In this document: piece after piece, positions 1-15,460 of the stretch
How the letters are laid out: every line of letters begins with the position of its first letter
Position numbering within the stretch: the first letter of the stretch is position 1
Assembly: GCF_007829875.1 (NCBI RefSeq)
Contig: NZ_VIWV01000001.1
Location: 310,001-374,000, forward strand
Length of the DNA: 64,000 nucleotides
Direction of reading: 5' to 3'
Source of the DNA: Streptomyces capillispiralis
GTDB lineage: Bacteria > Actinomycetota > Actinomycetes > Streptomycetales > Streptomycetaceae
Notes under the pieces: model-generated
Database searches by the model: none
What the model saw: only the letters and a program-made list of their open reading frames with translations
What the model was told of the DNA's origin: nothing
Translations under genes and position numbers: made by a program

Positions 1-13358
<13,358 letters not shown>

Positions 13359-13737
13359 TTCAACGCAACCCATCTGGAAGAAGACCGGCGGACGGCTGGC
13401 CATCCGGTGGGGACACCGGGTGTTCGGTGCGGCCGTTCGGCGGGACGACCGGGGTGTCCGGGGGAAGAGGGAGAGCGGGGGCGGGGCGGGCGTGCCCGGC
13501 GCGGGACGTCACGCGCCGGGCAGTCCGGGTCGTCCGTGGTGCCGGGGCCCGCCTGTCCGCGGCGGATCCCCGGCACGACGCCGGGCGGGGACCGCCGCGG
13601 CAACTCCTCCGGAGCACGCGCGCAGCGCGCGTGCCGTGCACCCAGTTCCGCAGACCATGCGCCCAGTCTCGGGCGGTACGTCTGCGGAAATCCCTAGTGT
13701 GTGCGGCCGGAGCGCGGGACCCGACGGCCCGAGAGGC
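13359..13737. other. Intergenic region between dehydratase and PKS: operator and leader hairpins
   Basis: No credible gene is present. Reading on the minus strand from the dehydratase stop, there is first a PAS-LuxR-type operator sequence (13682-13697). Next comes a 21-base palindrome (13614-13634, 10-base arms around a single A), then a 10-base-pair hairpin (13494-13521, 8-base loop), then the PKS start. If transcription begins just below the operator, both structures lie in a PKS leader of roughly 300 bases. They could also terminate dehydratase read-through. Confidence 0.6.
13682..13697 (-). promoter_or_regulatory. PimM/AmphRIV-type PAS-LuxR operator upstream of PKS
   Basis: The plus strand reads CTGCGGAAATCCCTAG. 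The published PimM operator consensus, as I remember it, is CTVGGGAWWTCCCBAG; 15 of 16 positions agree. Such sites sit at the -35 region of polyene PKS and tailoring promoters, and here the site is 324 bases before the PKS start. No PAS-LuxR regulator gene lies in the window; it would have to be elsewhere in the cluster. The match is seen directly; function is inferred. Confidence 0.7.
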
Positions 13738-14775
13738 CTACCAGGTGCCGGCGGCCGCCACCAGCCGGCTGTAGTCGCGGTCGCGCGAGGCCTGGCGCAG
13801 GTCGGACTCGACCATCATGCGCATCAGCTGCTCGAAGTCGACCTCGGGCTCCCAGCCCAGCTCCTTGCGGGCGTTGGTGGTGTCGGCGCACAGCGTCTCG
13901 ACCTCGGCGGGACGTACCAGCTTGGGGTCGATGACGACGTGGTCGCGCCAGTCCAGGCCCACGTGCTCGAAAGCGATGCGTGCCGCGTCGCGCACGGTGT
14001 GCATCCGCCCGGTGCCCACGACGTAGTCGACGGGCTCCTCCTGCTGGAGCATCAGGTGCATGGCACGCACGTAGTCGCCGGCGAAGCCCCAGTCGCGCTC
14101 GGCGTCCAGGTTGCCGAGGCTGACCTTGTCCATCAGGCCCAGCTTGATCTGGGCCACCGCCAGGGTGATCTTCCGGGTCACGAACTCGGCTCCGCGGCGC
14201 GGGGACTCGTGGTTGAAGAGGATCCCGGAGACGCCGTACATCCCGAACGACTCGCGGTAGTTGCGGGTGATGTAGTGGCCGAACGTCTTGGCCACGCCGT
14301 ACGGGCTGCGCGGGTGGAACCGGGTCGTCTCGCTCTGCGGGCTCTCCACGACCTGCCCGAACATCTCCGAGGAGGACGCCTGGTAGAAGCGGATCTGGCC
14401 GCGGGAGGCGCCGCCGGAGGACTTGCTCAGTCCGCTGACCATGCGGATGGCCTCGAGCATGCGCAGCACGCCGGTGCCGTTGACCTCGGTGACCAGTTCG
14501 GGCTGCTGCCAGGACATGGGGACGAAGGAGATCGCCCCCAGGTTGTAGACCTCGTCGGGCTGGACCAGGTCGACCGCCGAGACCAGGCTGCCCTGGTCCA
14601 TCAGGTCGCCGTCCACGAAGGACAGACCGGGGATCATCTCGGCGATCCGGTCCTTTCGCGGGTTGGCCTGCCCACGGCAGAGCCCCCACACCGCGTACCC
14701 CTGGCTCAGCAGGTGTTCCGCCAGGTAGGAACCGTCCTGTCCGGTGATTCCGGTGATCAGTGCGCGCTTGGACAT
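13738..14775 (-). CDS. gmd: GDP-mannose 4,6-dehydratase (mycosamine pathway, NysDIII/AmphDIII-like)
   Basis: This 345-residue short-chain dehydrogenase-type sugar nucleotide enzyme should convert GDP-mannose to GDP-4-keto-6-deoxymannose in the cytoplasm, the first step to GDP-mycosamine. It opens with an NADP-binding glycine motif (ITGITGQDGSYLAEHL), has the SSSE segment and the YGVAK catalytic Tyr/Lys pair, and shows GMD landmarks such as NHESPRRG and the RDWGFAGDYV stretch. The start at 14775 has GGAAAG just upstream and begins MSKRALITG. It lies directly upstream of the PKS on the same strand, as the DIII gene does beside the I-subunit PKS gene in nystatin and amphotericin clusters (from memory). 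A primary-metabolic GMD is the alternative, but the context favours antibiotic sugar supply. The aminotransferase and glycosyltransferase needed to finish mycosamine are not in this window. Confidence 0.93.
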   Translation of the reverse strand: MSKRALITGITGQDGSYLAEHLLSQGYAVWGLCRGQANPRKDRIAEMIPGLSFVDGDLMDQGSLVSAVDLVQPDEVYNLGAISFVPMSWQQPELVTEVNGTGVLRMLEAIRMVSGLSKSSGGASRGQIRFYQASSSEMFGQVVESPQSETTRFHPRSPYGVAKTFGHYITRNYRESFGMYGVSGILFNHESPRRGAEFVTRKITLAVAQIKLGLMDKVSLGNLDAERDWGFAGDYVRAMHLMLQQEEPVDYVVGTGRMHTVRDAARIAFEHVGLDWRDHVVIDPKLVRPAEVETLCADTTNARKELGWEPEVDFEQLMRMMVESDLRQASRDRDYSRLVAAAGTW

Positions 14776-15460
14776 CTTCTCTCTTTCCACCGCCAGGGAG
14801 AGGACCGGTCGGCGTGGAGCCGGCACCGCGCCCGCAGACCGGAAGCGGCTTCATCCGAGGCGGGACGCGCGTCCTGAGGCGCACCGGTGCCTGTCCGGTC
14901 CTGCCGCATACCGAGACGCACGGCCTGCGCTGACTCACGAGCCGTCCTCGTGACGGCCATGCAAGCACCGAAACCCCTAAGGAATTTCCGAGTCTTCGCC
15001 GCCGAACCGCGCCGGGAGCACACTCGTGTCCCCGCCGAGACCAACCGCCGAAACACCGGACGCGAACCACCGGACGCGAGGCGCCCGACACCGGCCACGG
15101 GACGCCGGGCGGGCCGCGGGCATCAGATCTCCGGAGGCCGGACGGGCTGTCTGCGGCGGATCCTTTTTCACACCGGTCAGGCCTCGGGCCTCAGCCAACC
15201 CCGCACCGGGCGGGCACGGGACGCCGGTCGGCCCCGGGACGCCGAGCGCCGCGGCCCTGCGGCCGGCCCGGGCTCGGACTCACAGCTCCTGACGGAGTGA
15301 CCGAGTCAAGGCTGAGCTCGACTTCCTCCGAAGGTCGGTGTCAGGTAGAGGGGACAAAACTCCTGCTCGTAGGGGATCTTGCGCCCGTAGGCTGCACACG
15401 TGGCGAAGGAAGACGAGATCAACCCGGTTGTCCGCGTCGGAGGTGACCGGTATCGGACGA
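14776..15460. other. Long intergenic region upstream of the dehydratase
   Basis: About 685 bases separate the dehydratase from the HAD-like gene. The region holds a PAS-LuxR-type operator (14977-14992), which suits a promoter for the dehydratase, and a possible remnant reading frame that begins at 15400. The rest is GC-rich with short imperfect repeats (for example the ten-base CCGGACGCGA twice near 15057-15080). I see no other gene. It probably marks the edge of the polyene cluster. Confidence 0.55.
14977..14992 (-). promoter_or_regulatory. PimM/AmphRIV-type PAS-LuxR operator upstream of the dehydratase
   Basis: The plus strand reads CTAAGGAATTTCCGAG. It agrees with the remembered consensus CTVGGGAWWTCCCBAG at 14 of 16 positions; the two mismatches are symmetric (positions 4 and 11-side). 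It lies about 200 bases before the dehydratase start. Together with the site at 13682 it suggests that both genes answer to the same cluster-situated activator. Confidence 0.6.

Follow-up and report, generated by a model that had tools for sequence, protein, structure and literature searches.

The PAS-LuxR activators PimM, AmphRIV and NysRIV of the pimaricin, amphotericin and nystatin systems have operators with the consensus CTVGGGAWWTCCCBAG, which is common to the sites analyzed here. PimM operators sit at the -35 hexamer according to the available part of one review (PMC4700089), and the available part of another records binding of PimM to the amphDIII, nysDIII, amphI and nysI promoters, the amphotericin and nystatin counterparts of both sites described below (PMC9774167). 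For the candicidin regulon of FscRI (S. albidoflavus S4, Streptomyces sp. FR-008), sites at fscMI, fscA, fscB1, fscB2 and fscD are described as experimentally verified in the accessible portion of PMC5143413, and were found by ChIP-seq according to the portion of a further review at hand (PMC6627628). The fscMIII transcript drops in a delta-fscRI strain, as stated in the available part of PMC9774167. Because PimM binding to DIII and PKS-I promoters is already published, the locus described here is an expected instance of a known regulatory system, and the new pieces that it contributes are small: a conserved fscMIII operator, an operator map of the cluster and a stray activator.

Two operator-like sequences in the window

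The window, by which is meant the whole 64-kb stretch of Streptomyces capillispiralis DNA analyzed, begins at C1:310001 of the 8.43-Mb genome. A PAS-LuxR-type operator sequence preceding an fscD-like PKS gene lies on the minus strand at 13682..13697 (forward-strand letters CTGCGGAAATCCCTAG; CTAGGGATTTCCGCAG when read in the direction of the gene) and has one mismatch to the 16-bp dyad CTVGGGAWWTCCCBAG, and another preceding an fscMIII-like dehydratase gene lies at 14977..14992, also on the minus strand (CTAAGGAATTTCCGAG on the forward strand, CTCGGAAATTCCTTAG in gene direction), with two mismatches. The preliminary description had reported these 16-mers as matching at 15 and 14 of 16 positions and as lying upstream of a PKS and a GDP-mannose dehydratase gene, and both statements hold. 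The sites are intergenic in our own gene calls and precede the probable ATG starts of the PKS gene (13358, minus) and the dehydratase gene (14775, minus) by 323 and 201 bp respectively; both are biosynthetic genes of a cluster that contains a PAS-LuxR gene. The fscMIII-like GDP-mannose 4,6-dehydratase gene (13738..14775, minus strand) was assigned by a match to Pfam PF16363 (E 1.5e-121); its ATG start is probable by inspection, the open frame reaching further, to a GTG at 14826. The fscD-like modular PKS gene exits the left end of the window, with its 5' part at 1..13358 (minus strand) as judged from the open frame, the KS positions and a probable ATG; the whole gene spans C1:294712-323358 and encodes six KS domains.

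A candicidin-like cluster and its activator

The cluster extends over approximately 136 kb, from about C1:188,973 to 324,826. Its left end consists of genes for a GH64 glucanase, a pabC-like aminotransferase, the PAS-LuxR protein and three large LuxR regulators, followed by glycosyltransferase, aminotransferase and P450 genes, a small ferredoxin-like frame (assigned by eye only), and thioesterase and pabAB genes. The right end is made up of PKS A, which carries the AMP-binding head, a pair of ABC transporter genes, then PKS C, B, F, E and D, and finally the dehydratase gene. PKS A, C, B, F, E and D contain 1, 6, 3, 1, 4 and 6 KS domains respectively, 21 in total. The cluster is candicidin/FR-008-like, having a PABA synthase, an AMP-binding (CoA-ligase) starter head, the PKS order A, C, B, F, E, D and fscMIII in last place. 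Gene order from pabC to fscMIII is the same as in the available part of a candicidin gene list (PMC11678301), and the lengths of PKS B, C, D and E in that list are within about 1% of those found here. An amphotericin/nystatin-type cluster was ruled out, since the presence of PABA genes, the AMP-binding starter head and the order of the PKS genes all fit candicidin.

The cluster differs from the same list (PMC11678301, available part) in its fscF-like gene (C1:266520-271346; L162:120-4946), which encodes the last PKS module and measures 4,827 bp rather than 6,150 bp, being shorter than the expected length of about 6.15 kb by approximately 1.3 kb. KS, AT, DH, ACP and TE domains were assigned to this module by Pfam and a KR domain was not; the product may differ from candicidin. 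The place beside the pabC-like gene, held by fscO in the list, is taken here by a GH64 beta-1,3-glucanase gene (C1:188973-190262; L163:73-1362), and the cluster is therefore called candicidin-like and the strain is not asserted to be a candicidin producer. Among named relatives, the dehydratase of S. calvus is closest (97%), followed by those of Streptomyces sp. NRRL S-37 and S. caelestis (both 96%).

The cluster-situated activator that had been expected outside the window is present approximately 118 kb to its left, in the same cluster, as a gene (C1:191302-192003) encoding a 233-aa protein with PAS_4 and GerE domains. The earlier assignment of the regulatory system to the PimM/AmphRIV type is right in kind, but FscRI is the better reference since the cluster is candicidin/FR-008-like. 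The protein has the PAS domain, the C-terminal LuxR HTH and the near-identity to known members that are characteristic of an FscRI-type activator. Its DNA-binding region is identical at 54 of 54 positions to that of S. calvus and at 51 of 54 to that of an S. albidoflavus strain, with 49 of 54 for the best-matching protein of S. natalensis ATCC 27448, the pimaricin producer, and 48 of 54 for the S. noursei match, the latter two unlabelled records being taken as PimM and NysRIV from their species. Upstream of the activator gene, a TTGACC-17/18-TAnnnT promoter was read by eye in this strain, S. albidoflavus and S. beigongshangae, the S. calvus stretch being too short for this comparison, and no operator within three mismatches was found in the stretches inspected. 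Autoregulation of the fscRI-like gene is not supported, the sole upstream match having four mismatches and overlapping the -10 of the TTGACC-type promoter. As a separate observation, the PAS-LuxR match of Streptomyces sp. NBRC 110035 (G005:C51:56349-57050, L114) holds one in-frame TAG.

Operators across the cluster

Seven matches with three mismatches or fewer were found in the cluster, six of which are intergenic although noncoding DNA makes up only approximately 3,718 bp (about 3.7 of 136 kb); the other lies inside a PKS gene, at C1:236983. The six intergenic operator-like sequences precede fscMI/fscRIV, fscA, fscB (two, with starts 84 bp apart), fscD and fscMIII. Where the preliminary description had marked out the regulon by two operators, both sites stand, but a scan of the rest of the cluster gives six. 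One or two operators head each of five gene groups, which we drew from strand and spacing (fscMI to pabAB; fscA-TI-TII; fscB-C; fscD-E-F; fscMIII), and none precedes the pabC-like gene next to the activator gene. Those at fscMI, fscA, fscB1, fscB2 and fscD are present in corresponding positions in the candicidin FscRI regulon, as given in the accessible portion of PMC5143413. Sites equivalent to those at fscMI, fscA, fscB1 and fscB2 were found in S. calvus and S. albidoflavus NRRL B-1271, and all ten nearest relatives have a site with one or two mismatches between the dehydratase gene and the PKS. Across the 80 dehydratase loci compared, such a site after the dehydratase gene was found in 19, a count that does not itself establish the presence of a PKS there in each locus.

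Conservation of the fscMIII operator

In comparison with the candicidin regulon (S. albidoflavus S4, Streptomyces sp. FR-008), the well-kept operator at fscMIII is an extra one. It is absent from the verified FscRI list in the available part of PMC5143413, and could be in print in the FR-008 regulator or PimM literature. The 80 loci were collected via the dehydratase and are related, so that counts from them are not independent. In the 300 bp upstream of the dehydratase gene, a site with three mismatches or fewer is present in 55 of the 80, with two or fewer in 39, with one at most in 14 and with none in eight, and 60 dyad-preserving permutations of the motif over the same loci gave means of 2.0 at three mismatches and 0.1 at two (maxima 17 and 2). 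Presence of the site tracks that of a PAS-LuxR protein of at least 60% identity, being observed at 41 of 46 loci with such a protein vs 14 of 33 without (P = 1.3e-5; 79 loci, with L035 left out). The five of 46 loci that have a close PAS-LuxR yet no site within three mismatches are L021, L037, L066, L087 and L091.

Alignment of the fscMIII promoters of this strain and ten relatives revealed a sharp block that contains the operator, the sequence TGCTTGCATG and an inverted repeat, upstream of which the DNA is poorly alignable. S. albidoflavus NRRL B-1271 retains the block as a whole, but its operator departs from the consensus at four positions. The inverted repeat, CACGAG-GACGG-CTCGTG, is conserved and lies just after the operator at 14936..14952 on the minus strand. 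Its core, ACGAGGACGGCTCGTGAG, is exact in 10 of the 11 aligned promoters, and no second copy within two mismatches was found in the genome.

Promoter architecture

A predicted -10 element of the fscD-like promoter, GAGACT, is located 11 nt after the operator (13665..13670, minus strand). In this strain and ten relatives, the fscD operator is followed at 11-12 nt by the hexamer (C/G)AGACT, which also comes after the fscB1 operator in three species that were compared; CAGCCT or GAGCCT is found 11 nt after the fscA operator in four. Only fscD, fscB1 and fscA have a -10-like hexamer at a fitting distance, fscMI, fscMIII and fscB2 being different, and a scan of 13300-15300 for sigma-70-like promoters found none. 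The -10-like hexamers lead us to predict that at fscD, fscB1 and fscA the operator takes the place of a -35 box.

A further element, a TTGAC box, follows the operator in 23 of the 55 site-bearing dehydratase promoters at a distance of 15 nt (21 loci) or 16 nt (two loci); these are L034, L036, L038, L040-L044, L046, L053, L054, L056-L058, L060, L065, L069, L070, L073, L079, L086, L090 and L093. The S. natalensis and S. noursei dehydratase promoters carry this box after the operator whereas the window's own does not, and of the ten nearest relatives the nine whose promoters bear the site all lack it. As the promoters with the box are in this respect unlike those of heptaene type, the promoters of one orthologous dehydratase gene seem, from their sequences, to be of two designs.

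Chance matches and other regulators

The count of matches in the window is at chance level, four with three mismatches or fewer being found vs a shuffled mean of 2.40 with 24 of 100 shuffles reaching four, and a scan of the window by itself is therefore no proof of the sites. In the whole genome, 22 places match with two mismatches or fewer and the reversed pattern also matches 10. Both sequences might on these counts be chance matches, a reading to which we nevertheless attach next to no probability and which was rejected on conservation despite the window-only count. Five of the 22 genome places lie in the 136-kb cluster, where 0.36 were expected (P = 3.5e-5, for cluster limits picked after the map had been seen), and of the 17 outside it nine are inside a called gene and eight are not, according to crude ORF calls. 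In the 80 loci, the density of matches with two mismatches or fewer in the 300 bp upstream of the dehydratase gene is 160 times that of the rest (39 in 22,436 bp vs 7 in 646,022 bp), the stretch directly after the dehydratase gene being excluded from both sides of the comparison. This local enrichment, together with conservation of the sites in relatives, is the strongest evidence against chance. The preliminary description had named, among outcomes that could refute the operators, the lack of a PAS-LuxR gene in the cluster and an equal match density in random DNA; the gene is present, and cluster density and conservation proved far above background, though the window-only count did not. Instead of the PAS-LuxR protein, the reader of the dyads could be any of three large LuxR (LAL) regulators that are GerE-bearing and encoded in the cluster adjacent to the PAS-LuxR gene, but the consensus derives from PimM, such sites are reported for FscRI in the available parts of PMC9774167 and PMC5143413, and presence of the site tracks a close PAS-LuxR, all of which makes a LAL reader very improbable.

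The genome also contains a second, stray PAS-LuxR gene at C1:639940-640689 (L144:4941-5690), which is intact and encodes PAS_4 and GerE domains. Its product is 69% identical to the cluster protein by HMMER (65% by blastp) and 72% identical to the S. albidoflavus FscRI-like protein, and the DNA-binding regions of the stray and cluster proteins are nearly identical and have in common the stretch LSRQGVEYHV, which we take to be the recognition helix. Such similarity would be expected if the stray protein, alone or with the cluster copy, worked these operators, but this is unlikely given that its gene is 448 kb from the cluster copy and outside any ketosynthase cluster, no ketosynthase having been found near it, that the cluster retains its own activator as do candicidin clusters (PMC11678301, available part), and that two PAS-LuxR proteins of S. 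ahygroscopicus do not substitute for one another (PMC9774167, available part). Proteins of the stray type (E 1e-60 or better) were found in 15 of 199 genomes of the genus, this strain included, the best outside this strain being 65% identical, and the stray gene may be left over from a cluster that has been lost. Close to the stray gene, a sulfatase gene (C1:636953) has a match with two mismatches approximately 50 bp ahead of its probable start; this match was counted above among the nine in-gene places, yet precedes that start.

Proposed regulatory model

The locus has conserved sites, an activator gene and operators heading five gene groups. The two window sites very probably represent two of six operator-like intergenic sequences to which the FscRI-like activator is predicted to bind, thereby switching on the fscD-like PKS and fscMIII-like dehydratase genes. 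The activator, probably as a dimer, would bind the dyad in place of the -35 box and, once bound, would recruit RNA polymerase. Its own gene, operator-free and with a TTGACC-17/18-TAnnnT promoter, would be expressed first under other controls, and the activator would then turn on assembly, sugar and export genes together. A broader reading is possible but doubtful, in which a sixth candicidin-type operator at fscMIII was overlooked because the mapping of the regulon was done in the S. albidoflavus lineage, which has a decayed copy of the site, and in which two PAS-LuxR proteins, the cluster's own and the stray one, read the six operators and that of the sulfatase gene, giving two PAS-sensed inputs to antifungal production.

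With the FscRI-like activator of the cluster as the predicted reader, the operator code published for PAS-LuxR proteins allows the wiring of a hitherto uncharacterised polyene cluster to be charted, and the fscMIII operator is the likely cause of the FscRI dependence of fscMIII reported in the available part of PMC9774167. The stray activator provides a test case for cross-talk between two PAS-LuxR proteins of one strain, the need for which is named in the same part of that review (PMC9774167).
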